NCBI GenBank assembly: GCA_947589735.1
Contig: CANQCR010000013.1
Coordinates: 1-42,238 of the forward strand
Length of the DNA: 42,238 nucleotides
Direction: 5' to 3'
From: an uncultured Bacilli bacterium
Lineage (GTDB): Bacteria; Bacillota_I; Bacilli_A; RF39; UBA660
The notes beneath the pieces are model-generated. The model made no database searches, was not told the origin of the DNA, and saw only the letters and a list, made by a program, of their open reading frames with translations. Below, in pieces: positions 31,001 to 40,290 of the stretch (position 1 is the stretch's first letter; each line of letters begins with the position of its first letter). The translations under genes were made by a program, and so were the position numbers.

Positions 31001-31747
31001 ATGAAGTTTGATGTTCCAAAAGATGTAATTAACACCCTATTTAGTGCGGGATATGAAGATCAAATAATTGATACGGTTATGGCTTGTGAGGGTATGCCTG
31101 ATACATCTATTAGTGATATTCCCCTTTCTCCAACCCAGATGCAAGATAGTCGTGATCACATCATCATTTCACCTAACGTGTATCAGACATATCTTCAGTT
31201 TTTACAAAGGATAAATAATAGTGAGACCGCTAAAGAAATTCCCTTTTTTCTTTTAGGGAATAGAAAAGAAATTGACGGAACGCAATATGTCGTATTTGAA
31301 GAAATTGTATTTGATATGAAAGAAGCCTTATCGGATACAAGGGTTTCTGCTAACATCGATAGTTTTCAACAACTGTTAGCAGATGATAATTTTTCTATCG
31401 TTTCGATTGGCCATACCCATGGTAATGTTTCAGAAAATCAAAAAAATGTGGCTTTAGCTAGAAAATTACCTATGGCACTAAAAGATAAATATGACATTAG
31501 AGATACCGGATTAAATGTATCTGTATCTGATATTTGGCAACATGAAGCGTTTAAGGCGCTAGCTAAAAATAATGCACCTAATAAAGAAATATTCCAAACC
31601 GTTATTATGTATAACGGCGATATGGTTATTCTTGGGAGTGATGGCATAACGAAAACTAATGACGTTGTAGCTCTAACAGAAAATAACGAAAAAATCGCCA
31701 TTAAAACGGGGATGGAATCGCAAACTTTTGGGGAACATATCAAATAA
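31001..31747 (+). CDS. JAMM/MPN-like metalloprotein
   Basis: 248 residues. FEEIVFD supplies a possible catalytic Glu, IGHTHGNVS the two His ligands (HxH), and SVSDIWQHE the SxxD ending: the three parts of a JAMM motif in the right order. The gap from the HTH to the SxxD is about 38 residues rather than the usual ten, so an insertion separates them. The N-terminal 60 residues are an extra region. JAMM proteins cut isopeptide or peptide bonds after ubiquitin-like tails, or trim small peptides; no ubiquitin-like protein or E1/E2 is nearby. It could also be a structural MPN protein. AGGTG precedes the ATG; 72 bases from the phosphoesterase gene. Confidence 0.6.
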   Translation: MKFDVPKDVINTLFSAGYEDQIIDTVMACEGMPDTSISDIPLSPTQMQDSRDHIIISPNVYQTYLQFLQRINNSETAKEIPFFLLGNRKEIDGTQYVVFEEIVFDMKEALSDTRVSANIDSFQQLLADDNFSIVSIGHTHGNVSENQKNVALARKLPMALKDKYDIRDTGLNVSVSDIWQHEAFKALAKNNAPNKEIFQTVIMYNGDMVILGSDGITKTNDVVALTENNEKIAIKTGMESQTFGEHIK

Positions 31748-31819: not shown

Positions 31820-32542
31820 ATGTTTGGATTTAATTTAAATAAAAAGGAAAAATACTTTAATTCTCTTATAAAAGATAGCGTACAAGATGAAGAAAATTTA
31901 TATGGTTTTAACTCTAAATATGTGCATCAAGAAGATAGACTATATAAAATGTATGGTAACTGTGATTCTTTTAATAAAAAATTAAAGTTAATTATAATTA
32001 CAGACACGCATAATGCTTTAAATGATGAACAATTTAAAACCTTTTTAGATGCCCATCCTAACTATGATTTATGTTTACTATTAGGTGATCATAGCGCTAG
32101 AGATATTGAAATAATTTTAAAATATATCAATAAAGATAAAATTTATGGTCTATTAGGTAATCACAATTTTGATTATTTAGAGCAATATTCGATAAGAAAC
32201 TTAAATGGTTATAAAATAACCGTTAATGATGTGTCTATAATTGGTATGCAAGGAAGTTTTAAATATAAACCTGGTGATTTCCCATCTTTTAGTCAACTTG
32301 ATAGTATCTTATTTGTCGATAAGATGCCTAAAGCTGATATATTAGTTACTCATGATAATAGATTTGATGAAAATATGAAAAATAATCCTGCTCATCAAGG
32401 ATTATTTGGCATTACTTATTATTTATATAAGAACAAAGTGCCTTTTCATATTCATGGTCATTTGCATAATAACTATACTTCAAGCTTAAAAAATGGTACT
32501 AAAGAAATATGTGTTTTTATGTATCAATATATAGAATTATAA
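31820..32542 (+). CDS. Calcineurin-like metallophosphoesterase
   Basis: 240 residues. The metal-binding blocks are IIITDTHNAL (the DxH motif), LLLGDHSARD (GDH), LLGNHNFDYLE (GNHN), ILVTHDNRFDE and IHGHLHNNYT (GHxH). All ligands are present, so it is an active phosphoesterase, cytoplasmic, of unknown substrate. GAGGCG lies before the ATG. It follows the JAMM-like gene but has its own -10 box. Confidence 0.85.
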   Translation: MFGFNLNKKEKYFNSLIKDSVQDEENLYGFNSKYVHQEDRLYKMYGNCDSFNKKLKLIIITDTHNALNDEQFKTFLDAHPNYDLCLLLGDHSARDIEIILKYINKDKIYGLLGNHNFDYLEQYSIRNLNGYKITVNDVSIIGMQGSFKYKPGDFPSFSQLDSILFVDKMPKADILVTHDNRFDENMKNNPAHQGLFGITYYLYKNKVPFHIHGHLHNNYTSSLKNGTKEICVFMYQYIEL

Positions 32543-34850: not shown

Positions 34851-35948
34851 TTAATTGACTTCATCTTTCATATCTTGGATTTTACCTAATTCAATGTCTT
34901 TTGATACTTTGAATAATCTTTCATATTCTGATAGTAAATCAATTAACTTATTCCAATTTTTAGGATAACCACCTTTGCCAGATATAATTTTTTGACTATT
35001 TTCAGTATCTATTTTTATATTCCATGACACATTGCTATCACCTGAATAAGTATCTTCCCAGTCATTTATTATACTATAAAGTCTTGTTATAAAATCAGTA
35101 TAATATTTTTCTGGTATAGGTGTTGCTAAATCAGATATTGACTTACCATCTAAATTATTTAAATCTGCAAAAAGCAAGTCATAAGTTCCAAGTCTTTCGG
35201 CATAATTTAAAGATAAAACATAATTATTTTTTTCATTTTGGATGCCAACACCTACTGATCCTTTTATTACGGAATTATTTGATGGTTTAGGAATATTAAT
35301 ATTTGGTACTCCATACACTCTTTGTGGTACATTAGCTTCTGGTTCTATATCATAGTTCTTTTTAAGAAAATCTGGTATTCCATAAAGCTCATAAGGAATA
35401 TTATCTTCGGGTTCGATATCATAGTCTTCATCATCTTTTACAAAGCTACTAACATTAAAATATTTTTTTAATATTGCTACCACTTTATCATAATTTGATG
35501 GGAAATTATTAGAACCACTAGATTTTTTATTTTGTTCAACTAATTCTATATGCCATTGAGTTCCATCCATAACTCCAGGATTATTATATCTTTCATTCCA
35601 ATCCTTAATTTCAGGTAGTATTTCTTCCATAAATTTTTTATAATATTCACCATTTTGTGAAAGAATATGAATATTAGGATCATTCTCATCATTATTAACA
35701 AGTTTACCATTTTCTGAATATCCAAATCTAAATTCATAACTATCTTTATCATTATTTACAAAATAGTAGTATGAAGGTCCAAAATATCCACCTTCAAATG
35801 CCGAAAAAATAGTTTTTTGATCTGTTCTCTTTTCTTCCTTTTCTTGTTCCCATTGGTTTCTCATATTATCTGGTATTCCATAAACAAATTGTGGTACATT
35901 ATCCTTTTCATCAATTTCATATTTATCTTTTTTACTAAATAAACCCAT
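34851..35948 (-). CDS. Duplicated-domain protein with three NVPQxVYGIP-type motifs
   Basis: 365 residues from the ATG at 35948, with GGAGAG upstream; a TTG five codons earlier lies in the ribosome site. The motif (Y/E-D/E-I-D/E-P/E-x-D/A-N-V/I-P-Q/Y-x-V/L-Y-G-I/V-P) occurs at residues 10-26, 176-192 and 199-215. Two copies of an unrecognised domain surround it, about 47-164 and 226-345, aligned by YYKKFMEEI/YYTDFITRL, by a shared DWxxxY, by WHIELVE/WNIKIDT and by NFPSNYDKV/GYPKNWNKL. No membrane segment or signal peptide. It is the last gene of the cluster with the zinc ribbon, radical SAM and VirD4-like genes. The short conserved motif could be a recognition or modification site; that is inference. 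Confidence 0.75.
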   Translation of the reverse strand: MGLFSKKDKYEIDEKDNVPQFVYGIPDNMRNQWEQEKEEKRTDQKTIFSAFEGGYFGPSYYYFVNNDKDSYEFRFGYSENGKLVNNDENDPNIHILSQNGEYYKKFMEEILPEIKDWNERYNNPGVMDGTQWHIELVEQNKKSSGSNNFPSNYDKVVAILKKYFNVSSFVKDDEDYDIEPEDNIPYELYGIPDFLKKNYDIEPEANVPQRVYGVPNINIPKPSNNSVIKGSVGVGIQNEKNNYVLSLNYAERLGTYDLLFADLNNLDGKSISDLATPIPEKYYTDFITRLYSIINDWEDTYSGDSNVSWNIKIDTENSQKIISGKGGYPKNWNKLIDLLSEYERLFKVSKDIELGKIQDMKDEVN

Positions 35949-35967
35949 ATCATTACTCTCCAAACTT

Positions 35968-36597
35968 TTAACATATTTTTTTTATTGCATTTATAATATT
36001 ATCAATATATTCTTTTTCCTCTAAACAAATAATACCATTATTTGAATATCTATCATTTTTATCTCTTAATTCTTTTATATCGTGACCATCGATTACTCCA
36101 TTTTTCCATTTGCTTTTATCGACATCTTCTGCATATACTTGATTTTGATTACACATAAATTCTTCTAATGAGCCAAGAACAAAATATAAAGGGTCATCTA
36201 CACTTTTATTTCCATTTAAAATTTCAACAATTTCATCATATACAAATTTTTTTCTTCCACCCATGATGAAGTCTCTATCATTTTCATAATCATAATTATT
36301 TAAATAATCTTGTAGTTCATTTAGGTAATTGATTGCCAAATCACTACTATTAATTTTATTTTTTATATGATAACCATAGAATTTATTAGCAAGATCTTCT
36401 CTTTTTAACCTATGTGAATTATTCTTTGAAATATCTATAGCTTCATAATTACAATATGGACATTTTTGTTTGTGATGTAATAATTTATCCTCGTCTTTCT
36501 TAGTTTTAAATAAATAATTAATACTATTAACAATTACTTGTTGACTTTCTTTGCCACATTTAGCACATTTAACTAATTCGCTACTAATATCACTCAT
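35968..36597 (-). CDS. Zinc-ribbon hypothetical protein
   Basis: 209 residues. Cys pairs at 11/14 (CAKCGK) and 46/49 (CPYCNY) make an N-terminal zinc ribbon with a Lys-rich insert between them. The rest is helical and charged, with an acidic YENDRDFIMGGRKKF stretch and a C-terminal helix ending KKIC. No known domain otherwise. The ATG is three bases from the stop of the radical SAM gene, so the two are translated together. It may bind the substrate or a nucleic acid; unknown. Confidence 0.7.
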   Translation of the reverse strand: MSDISSELVKCAKCGKESQQVIVNSINYLFKTKKDEDKLLHHKQKCPYCNYEAIDISKNNSHRLKREDLANKFYGYHIKNKINSSDLAINYLNELQDYLNNYDYENDRDFIMGGRKKFVYDEIVEILNGNKSVDDPLYFVLGSLEEFMCNQNQVYAEDVDKSKWKNGVIDGHDIKELRDKNDRYSNNGIICLEEKEYIDNIINAIKKIC

Positions 36598-36600
36598 TCA

Positions 36601-37695
36601 TTAATCCTCGCCCTCATATATATCTTTGATGCAAAAATTAGGTATTCTATCATCAAAATTAAATGTATGGAAAGAATCTCCCAAGCAATATTTCCATTTA
36701 GAACATTTATTACACTTTTCACATTTTAATCTATTATCACTTCTAAATAATTCATATTTATTTTCCCAAACATCAACAAAACTATCTGTTTTAATATTTC
36801 CTTGAACAAATTCTGGTCGTCTTTCAACATTTGGACAAACAAATATATCGCCATTACTTAATATACTTCCAACATATAATCCCGTCGTGCAAAAGAAATA
36901 GGTATCTCTAATTTCTTTTTCCATTGGAATATCCAAATAATGACTACAACCATATTCAACATTCATAATGTTTTCTTCCCTTTTTTCTTTAATAAAATTA
37001 AATAGCCATTTATATTCATCCTTATCTAACAAAATATCTTTATTACCTTTTGCTCGACCTATGGGATCTACATTTATAACTCGCCATGAAATAATATTTA
37101 ATTCTTTCATAAGATTATATAAATCTTCTAATTCATTAAGATTTTTCTTATTTGCAACAGTTGTAACTTGAACGATTTTTATTGAAGGAACTTTTTGTAA
37201 TTTTTTAATATTTTCAATGATTCTATCAAATGATCCAGGTACTTTTCTAAAGCTTTCATGGGTTGCTTTTAAACCATCAAGACTTATAGAAATTGTTTCC
37301 ATATTAGTCATATTCATTTTTTCAAGTATGTCATCATTTATTAGCATGCCATTTGATGTCATACCCCATCTAAAGCCTAATTTGTTAGCATAATCCATTA
37401 TTTCAAATAAATCTTTCCTAACTAATGGCTCTCCACCTGTCACATTTAGTAAAATATCATTGGGATTATAGTGCTGTGAAATATCTAACAATGCTTTTTT
37501 TAAATCTTCTGCACTAATTTCATCTTTTGGAGTAAAATCTCCACAACTACTACCACAATGTTCACATCTAGCATTACATCTTGATGTAACTTCCAGAAAT
37601 AAATCTTTTAAGATAGGGTTTTTATATAACTTTTGTCTATATTCATATAACCTTTCTAGATTTTTTATTTTAATTTGTTTTATTCTATCGTTCAC
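36601..37695 (-). CDS. Radical SAM/SPASM peptide-maturation enzyme
   Basis: 364 residues. The [4Fe-4S]-SAM motif CNARCEHC is at 40-47, then GGEP near 87-90, and SISLDG in the barrel. The C-terminal SPASM region has Cys around 270 to 355 (VCPNV, CEKCNKCSKWKYC and NFCIKD), enough for auxiliary clusters. This is the layout of enzymes that modify ribosomal peptides, anSMEs and quinohemoprotein-type maturases. There is no PqqD-type recognition domain visible. Next to it lie the zinc-ribbon and the repeat protein, the most obvious possible substrate. The specific chemistry is unknown. Confidence 0.88.
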   Translation of the reverse strand: MNDRIKQIKIKNLERLYEYRQKLYKNPILKDLFLEVTSRCNARCEHCGSSCGDFTPKDEISAEDLKKALLDISQHYNPNDILLNVTGGEPLVRKDLFEIMDYANKLGFRWGMTSNGMLINDDILEKMNMTNMETISISLDGLKATHESFRKVPGSFDRIIENIKKLQKVPSIKIVQVTTVANKKNLNELEDLYNLMKELNIISWRVINVDPIGRAKGNKDILLDKDEYKWLFNFIKEKREENIMNVEYGCSHYLDIPMEKEIRDTYFFCTTGLYVGSILSNGDIFVCPNVERRPEFVQGNIKTDSFVDVWENKYELFRSDNRLKCEKCNKCSKWKYCLGDSFHTFNFDDRIPNFCIKDIYEGED

Positions 37696-37722
37696 TTACA
37701 ACACCTACTAACTATTATTCAT

Positions 37723-39051
37723 TTAATCATCTATTTTAAATTGTTCAAATTCTGATTTTTCATTATTGTTTTGTAATTTACGCATTTGTTCTTCTCTATC
37801 TAATTGAGCAATTTTATCATCGATACTTTTAATTAAATCATCAAATTTGCGTGAATCTCCAAATTCCGTTTCAGAAAAATCCATATTTCCTAAGTGTTGT
37901 GCCTTTAAATCTTCGACCCATTTTTCTAAATTAAATAGTTTTACACCATTTGTATTTAATTTAGGATATTCAACATTACTTTCACTTAAAGGAAGCGTTT
38001 CAAATTCTTTTTCAGTTTTTTCTTCTACATTATCAATAACCACGCTAATATCTTTATTACCAACGGATACTAAATCACATAATTTTGGCATATAAATATT
38101 ATATATTTTTGATAATTCTGATACGGAACGAGTAGCAATATATGTTTTAATATTTCTTGAAATACAGGAACTTAAAATATCAACTAAATCATTACATTTT
38201 TCAATAATGTCAAAATTATCTAATACTAAGTTAAATTTATTTTTAGTTTTTAAATCAACAAGTATTGCATATAATTGTTCAATAAACATTGCTGCTAAAC
38301 TATTTAATGTTCTATTTTCATCTCTTGCAATAAAAATTATGGCAGTTGGTTTATTAGCAACATCTTCAAAACTAAAAGTAGTTTTGCTCATTAATTGTGA
38401 TAATTTTTCTCTTGATACAAATAATCTTAACTTTTGCCTAGCAACTGACAAAATACTTCCCTTTGTATCTCTTGGTGCAAAAAATGTAGTTGATGCAAAA
38501 ATATATGGTTTTGATGCTACGCCCTTTGCTTTAAAATACTCAGTAATATAATCAGATTCACCAATTTTTTTACTAACACCATTGAACATATAATCAGCAC
38601 TATTTAAGTTTACTTCGTCTTCTTTACCATCTTCAAATAGTCCTAACGTTACACCAGTAAAGAAATCAGATGCAGTTAGTGTCCAAAATGGATCGCTATT
38701 GATATTTTCATAAAAAATAATTTTACCTATTTTTTCAAGATACTCTTGTGCTTTATCTCCATTACCATTTTTAAATAAATTATATGGATATTCTAATGGA
38801 TTCCATCCTTCACTTTTATCAAAATCTCTTAAATTAATAATTATAGTATTATAGTTATTATCTTTTAACTTATCATAATATCTATTTAAGTATTCCTCTT
38901 TTGAATCTAGAATAAATAAACTTTCCTTTTGATCAATAGCCTTTTCAACAATTGGGAATAATACATTTGTAGTTTTCCCAGATGCTATATCTCCTTCAAC
39001 AATTAAATTTTTATGTGCATCAAGCACTTTTTCTAACATTTCTTTTTTCAT
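37723..39051 (-). CDS. VirD4/TraG-like P-loop ATPase without membrane anchor
   Basis: 442 residues. Walker A GDIASGKT is at 20-27. The GWNPLEYPYNLF stretch and SDPFWTLTASDFFTGVTLGLFED match VirD4/TraG coupling proteins, and FNLVLDNFDII supplies Walker B. It lacks the usual two N-terminal membrane helices and no other type IV secretion gene is present. C-terminal residues 390-442 are acidic and Gln-rich. Coupling proteins pump substrate into a secretion channel; a soluble one may move or load a protein or peptide by another route. The start has GGAGGAATT. First gene of the cluster with the radical SAM enzyme. A short decayed coding stretch lies upstream. Confidence 0.82.
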   Translation of the reverse strand: MKKEMLEKVLDAHKNLIVEGDIASGKTTNVLFPIVEKAIDQKESLFILDSKEEYLNRYYDKLKDNNYNTIIINLRDFDKSEGWNPLEYPYNLFKNGNGDKAQEYLEKIGKIIFYENINSDPFWTLTASDFFTGVTLGLFEDGKEDEVNLNSADYMFNGVSKKIGESDYITEYFKAKGVASKPYIFASTTFFAPRDTKGSILSVARQKLRLFVSREKLSQLMSKTTFSFEDVANKPTAIIFIARDENRTLNSLAAMFIEQLYAILVDLKTKNKFNLVLDNFDIIEKCNDLVDILSSCISRNIKTYIATRSVSELSKIYNIYMPKLCDLVSVGNKDISVVIDNVEEKTEKEFETLPLSESNVEYPKLNTNGVKLFNLEKWVEDLKAQHLGNMDFSETEFGDSRKFDDLIKSIDDKIAQLDREEQMRKLQNNNEKSEFEQFKIDD

Positions 39052-39294: not shown

Positions 39295-40290
39295 TTATAC
39301 TTTGTAATACATTTGATTTTTACTAGTAGGTTTATTAGGATTAGTCATTTTTATTAACCCATTTTCGAGAGCTGGTTTTAAATAATTATCTCTAAATGAA
39401 ATACGAGATTTCATATTTAATTTTTCCATTAATTCAGATGTAGTCATTGCCACACCAGTTTCCATTACATCTAACAATTTATTAACATATGAACTAATAT
39501 GATTTGCTTGTACACTTGTACTATTCATTAAATCCTCTAATATTTCATCAATCATTTTTAACATGAACTCTATAAATTCTGTAGAATTACCATTATGATC
39601 ACAAGTGGCAATAGATGAATAGTATTCATTTTGATATTTTTTTATCTGAGATTCAATTGGAACATATTCAAATATTTCTTCCCAATTTGATAATAAAACA
39701 TTTTGCCATAATCTAGCGATTCTGCCGTTTCCATCTTTAAACGGATGAATAAATACAAATTCATAATGAAATACTGATGATAGTATTAACGGATGCACTA
39801 CACCGTTATTATCTTTCAACCATTTAAATAACTGTTTCATTAGTTCATCAACTTGTTCGGGCGGTGGGCAAATATGAATACAATTACCATTTTCATCAAA
39901 TACTCCTTCATTACCTTTTCTAAAATCTCCAGATTCATCAACTGTAAGATAAGTCATTACACCATGAACTTTTTTTAAATCTTTAATCGAATATGGATTC
40001 ACTTCTTTTATTAATTTATATGCCTCATAAGCGTTTTTTACCTCTTGTATCTCATCTTGAGGGCCAATTACTTTTTTACCATCAATAATATCTTTAACTT
40101 GATCCAATGATAATGAGTTTTCTTCAATAGCTAATGATGAATGAATAGAACGAATTCTATTATTTCTTCTTAAAATTGGCATTTTATTTAGACTTTTATA
40201 ATTATCCAATTTACCAATTTTTTTCATTATGCTTGATACTCTATCTAACATAATATTAGTAATATCAAATGGTGGTATATATTTATCCAT
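39295..40290 (-). CDS. Fic-domain AMP-transferase
   Basis: 331 residues. The catalytic motif HPFKDGNGRIAR is at 182-193. An inhibitory-helix-like SSLAIEEN lies at 51-58, with the expected Glu that blocks the ATP site (variant of SxxxEG/N). A C-terminal winged-helix region (about 270-331, ending NQMYYKV) is common in this class. It would attach AMP, or another nucleotide part, to a Ser/Thr/Tyr hydroxyl of a target protein. No antitoxin partner is adjacent, consistent with the inhibition being internal (class II). A strong promoter and three spaced ACATAC repeats lie upstream (40320-40397). Confidence 0.88.
   Translation of the reverse strand: MDKYIPPFDITNIMLDRVSSIMKKIGKLDNYKSLNKMPILRRNNRIRSIHSSLAIEENSLSLDQVKDIIDGKKVIGPQDEIQEVKNAYEAYKLIKEVNPYSIKDLKKVHGVMTYLTVDESGDFRKGNEGVFDENGNCIHICPPPEQVDELMKQLFKWLKDNNGVVHPLILSSVFHYEFVFIHPFKDGNGRIARLWQNVLLSNWEEIFEYVPIESQIKKYQNEYYSSIATCDHNGNSTEFIEFMLKMIDEILEDLMNSTSVQANHISSYVNKLLDVMETGVAMTTSELMEKLNMKSRISFRDNYLKPALENGLIKMTNPNKPTSKNQMYYKV

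Follow-up and report, generated by a model that had tools for sequence, protein, structure and literature searches.

The window analysed here, a contig of 42,238 nucleotides from an uncultured Bacilli bacterium, probably carries a splicease-like modification pair on an island, in which the radical SAM/SPASM enzyme P0003 acts on its neighbour P0001 at three X-Y-G-x-P tags (Table 1). In the proposed mechanism, part of the tyrosine would be cut from the P0001 backbone, as in the cyanobacterial splicease, and the reaction would run with neither a PlpY partner nor a Nif11-type leader; the N-terminal extension of the enzyme, mostly absent from TIGR04103 enzymes, may replace PlpY. The products would be electrophilic ketoamides in the linkers between the globular domains of P0001, and their use might be protease resistance or the covalent capture of a partner. 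The host genome comprises 1.44 Mb in 26 contigs and is estimated to be 95% complete; its nearest named relatives are Bacilli assemblies, several of them from ruminant gut samples.

Table 1. Genes, tags and domains of the locus, numbered from the first letter of the window.
Feature	Position	Strand	Remarks
VirD4-like ATPase	37723-39051	minus	
Radical SAM/SPASM enzyme (P0003)	36601-37695	minus	
Zinc ribbon + helical domain (P0002)	35968-36597	minus	
Repeat protein (P0001), ORF opening at TTG 35963	34851-35963	minus	
Tagged protein P0001, likely ATG start	34851-35948	minus	X-Y-G-x-P tags, three in number; small alpha/beta domain, present twice
Tag 1, VPQFVYGIP	35871-35897	minus	predicted splice site V27-Y28-G29
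First, diverged domain copy of P0001	35466-35834	minus	22% identity to second copy
Tag 2, IPYELYGIP	35373-35399	minus	predicted splice site L-Y-G
Tag 3, VPQRVYGVP	35304-35330	minus	predicted splice site V-Y-G
C-terminal domain of P0001	34908-35300	minus	predicted Mago nashi-like fold, pLDDT 89.8, Z 10.4 to Magoh

A sequence-only reading of this DNA had described four consecutive genes on one strand with short gaps, and all four open reading frames were found again, separated by 27, 3 and 4 bases. P0003 matches the Radical SAM and SPASM models of Pfam, both above cutoff; its CxxxCxxC motif is formed by C40, C44 and C47, and further cysteines (C250, C269, C287, C325-C337 and C355) lie within and ahead of the SPASM region. 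The cluster motif is preceded by 39 residues, which is also the median of the P0003 clade, as against 17 in TIGR04103. PADLOC matched P0003 solely to viperin-type radical SAM models, as would be expected from the domain they share.

The ATG at 35948 (MGLFSKK, with GGAG upstream) is more likely to be the start of P0001 than the TTG at 35963, since homologues begin at that point. The three copies of a short motif noted earlier in this protein were confirmed and are not due to chance, because composition-shuffled sequences give just 0.00005 such matches per sequence. In a protein search of the host genome, X-Y-G-x-P tags were confined to P0001. The protein has no NCBIfam or Pfam match, so no Nif11 or nitrile-hydratase leader was detected, and it likewise did not match the TIGR04134 lipoprotein family in NCBIfam. 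Its two domain copies appear, from their sequences, to be homologous. The C-terminal copy, modelled from 13 sequences, is predicted to adopt a Mago nashi-like fold, the model aligning with Magoh at 3.3 A over 113 residues with 8% identity; the best non-Mago structure reached a Z score of 7.7 and the following one 5.2. To our knowledge, this fold is known solely from eukaryotes, and its predicted presence in P0001 says nothing on function.

A standard RiPP cluster was rejected, in agreement with the sequence-only reading, because neither a leader nor a transporter or peptidase could be recognised next to the pair in the window. Nothing pointed to a phage system either, viral contigs having given only 8 relatives, distant and partial. 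Elsewhere in the window, the protein at 31001-31747 has, by eye, apparent relatives near the same pair in loci L056 and L060, and the metallophosphoesterase at 31820-32542 has one in L060; the recurrence of these genes near the pair suggests a larger island. A Fic-family protein is encoded at 39295-40290, upstream of the VirD4-like gene.

Genome contigs were scanned with the enzyme, which gave 80 loci, 75 of which were used (L055-L129); they came from Bacilli, Clostridia, several candidate-phylum bacteria, a Methanocella archaeon and others. In genes no more than 600 bases from the enzyme, the distance taken as near, the strict tag motif occurred 32.2 times per 10,000 residues, compared with 0.94 at larger distances (34-fold), and its 178 matches compare with about 9.5 in shuffles; the motif was shaped after viewing examples, so that these figures describe the pattern, with the near-far contrast and the shuffles as controls. 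A tag match lay beside the enzyme in 46 of 73 loci with the strict motif and in 61 with the loose one. The residue after the tyrosine is glycine in 132 of 156 tags, and some tags read Y-A in place of Y-G.

The tags are carried by unrelated scaffolds. Among them are WXG100-type proteins (their WXG100 matches being below the Pfam cutoff), in which arrays like VQPKYGV occur, and other proteins whose arrays resemble VQPLYGVPTPPD. Lipoproteins carry tags as well, as do short proteins that combine a signal peptide with a membrane helix at the C-terminus, and small peptides in tandem that have YGCPNS close to their C-terminal end. In Parabacteroides, Phocaeicola and Treponema, the partners of TIGR04133 enzymes are TIGR04134 lipoproteins, whose EYGSP, EYGTP or CYGMP tags lie at the lipobox or just past it. 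The earlier proposal that the YGIP-repeat protein goes with the SPASM enzyme and is a candidate substrate gains support from this recurrence over many phyla, and the repeat is the likely site of modification; as judged from gene neighbourhoods and motifs, P0003 and P0001 appear to be a well-supported enzyme-substrate pair. A YGxP that occurs inside another zinc ribbon (ELWKYLYGEPTY) was discounted as a tag on visual inspection. Small peptides with YGCPNS or YGCPDS, tandem in several cases, were seen in L118 (3556-4321), L110, L111, L114, L117 and L124; they adjoin longer enzymes of about 530 residues and resemble classical RiPP precursors. In genome G141 and two relatives (L067-L069) the enzyme is present with no visible tag protein, and a conserved gene of 66-68 residues lies directly downstream of the enzyme relative.

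PlpX, a splicease demonstrated by experiment, is reported to excise tyramine from an X-Y-G motif and to leave an alpha-keto amide, with PlpY as its partner (PMC11002830; PMC10533398), and its family is identified in the paper as IPR026482. We read PlpX as belonging to TIGR04103, because of this identifier and because the cyanobacterial TIGR04103 loci of this analysis hold precursors that end in QPLYGV and match the Nif11 model, together with a small PlpY-like gene. In a thinly sampled tree with few outgroups, several of them on long branches, the TIGR04103 clade and the clade of P0003 and TIGR04133 were joined at 100/98 against the other sampled SPASM proteins. The two sister clades have in common SPASM radical SAM enzymes with cluster-binding cysteines and an X-Y-G motif in the adjacent substrate, down to QPLYGV in both (the tags of L075 read VQPLYGV). 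They differ in that the P0003 pair has no PlpY and no Nif11 or nitrile-hydratase leader, in that P0001 is a multidomain protein, and in that P0003 scores only 97.1 bits against TIGR04103, far below the cutoff of 725. No PlpY-like gene was detected among 5,247 open reading frames of the window and the loci, the best E values being 0.68 and 0.9. On the TIGR04103 side of the tree, L171 and L167 have neighbours with MVYG and CYGAPPP; this side may include other chemistry, because TIGR03913, whose name refers to a GDL-motif peptide, gives scores near those of TIGR04103.

Another close family is TIGR04133, the best profile for P0003 at 310.1 bits, which shares its clade, an X-Y-G-x-P partner and a similar N-terminal extension. 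P0003 nevertheless falls below the cutoff of 425 bits, and the TIGR04133 partner differs from P0001 in being a lipoprotein that bears a single tag close to its lipobox. The literature searched yielded no paper that mentions TIGR04133 or its lipoprotein by name. The suggestion that the locus represents a new system needs amending, as motif and phylogeny point to known splicease chemistry.

The fate of the tags in genomes where the enzyme was not found agrees with the pairing. All 11 enzyme-linked P0001-like proteins have intact tags. In G093 the tags read YGKT and LYDIP, in G176 the P0001-like protein has lost them, and G617 holds an untagged, degenerate copy. The absence of the enzyme from these three genomes is likely, not certain, because they are 68%, 86% and 89% complete. 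Five further genomes of the same genus have neither the enzyme nor the P0001 gene, so that the pair looks acquired.

On this comparative evidence, tyramine splicing would be the best-supported chemistry for the tags. The reading is weakened by the scores of P0003 below both the TIGR04103 and the TIGR04133 cutoffs, by the missing PlpY-like gene, by the loci with no visible tag protein and by the Y-A tags. Several of these points would fit an enzyme that acts on the same tags by other chemistry (tyrosine crosslinking, epimerisation or oxidation), its kinship with PlpX reflecting a common recognition of the motif and a different reaction. The distance of P0003 from TIGR04103, its higher scores against the heme-synthesis radical SAM families (heme b synthase and NirJ), the lack of PlpY, the existence of Y-A tags and the closeness of TIGR03913 to TIGR04103 all speak for this alternative, which we consider unlikely in view of the motif common to both clades, the support for their grouping in the tree and the prevalence of glycine after tyrosine, which matches the XYG motif of PlpX. 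The heme-family matches might also indicate a heme-type or other small-molecule radical SAM enzyme that lies beside the repeat protein by accident; this is hardly credible, given that these matches are all far below cutoff (the heme b synthase one reaches only 161 of the 500 bits required), that the tag-protein neighbour recurs across phyla and that genomes in which no enzyme was found have a damaged tag or none.

The soluble VirD4-like ATPase, which the sequence-only reading had included in a four-gene system as a possible loader or mover of the modified protein, is a separate, optional neighbour outside the core modification pair. It matches the T4SS-DNA_transf model of Pfam at 55.3 bits, above the cutoff of 20.1, and the profile of the CD1115-family VirD4-like conjugal transfer proteins at 132 bits. 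The latter match covers the P-loop ATPase core, but the window protein has 442 residues, scores below the family cutoff of 250 bits and has no recognised conjugation genes nearby. One system of four genes would explain the short gaps in the window, the VirD4-like gene directly upstream of the enzyme in L056, L057, L060 and L062, and the P0001-like genes that come directly after a VirD4-like gene in G093 and G176 as well. It is, however, very improbable: the VirD4-like gene adjoins the enzyme in just 5 of 75 loci, one of them truncated and all in the closest clade, so that most enzyme-tag pairs do without it; L055 retains no more than a remnant of it, beside an intact enzyme and intact tags. 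Genes of the VirD4-like type are found apart from the enzyme too, including short ones with other neighbours, and inspection by eye of the window's listed open reading frames, some of which were family-scanned, revealed no recognisable relaxase or secretion-channel gene. A second short VirD4-like gene lies in the host genome (G000:C24, L048 7959-9236) and is followed by a protein of 1,132 residues.

The remaining gene, encoding the zinc ribbon P0002, is probably a split-off part of the substrate, since the tagged protein of L055, L056 and L062 has a ribbon of this type fused to its N-terminal end. The structure model of P0002 is poor (pLDDT 64.9).

A wider reading, possible but held with less than even confidence, is that TIGR04133-like enzymes of Bacillota, Bacteroidota, Spirochaetota, candidate-phylum bacteria and some archaea carry out leader-independent editing of protein backbones, with lipoproteins, secreted proteins and linkers receiving ketoamides at their X-Y-G-x-P tags; these would act as a reactive tag for proteins that are ordinary in other respects. 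Part of these findings may already be recorded in the survey that Scott and colleagues published in Chem in 2022, the title of which mentions peptides and proteins. The splicing reading predicts that each spliced tag lowers the mass by 135.08 Da. If it is true, tyramine splicing would be a protein modification of many phyla, beyond small peptide natural products, and would extend to lipoproteins of gut Bacteroidota and to surface proteins of candidate-phylum bacteria. It would also provide splicease tags that need neither a leader nor a partner protein.
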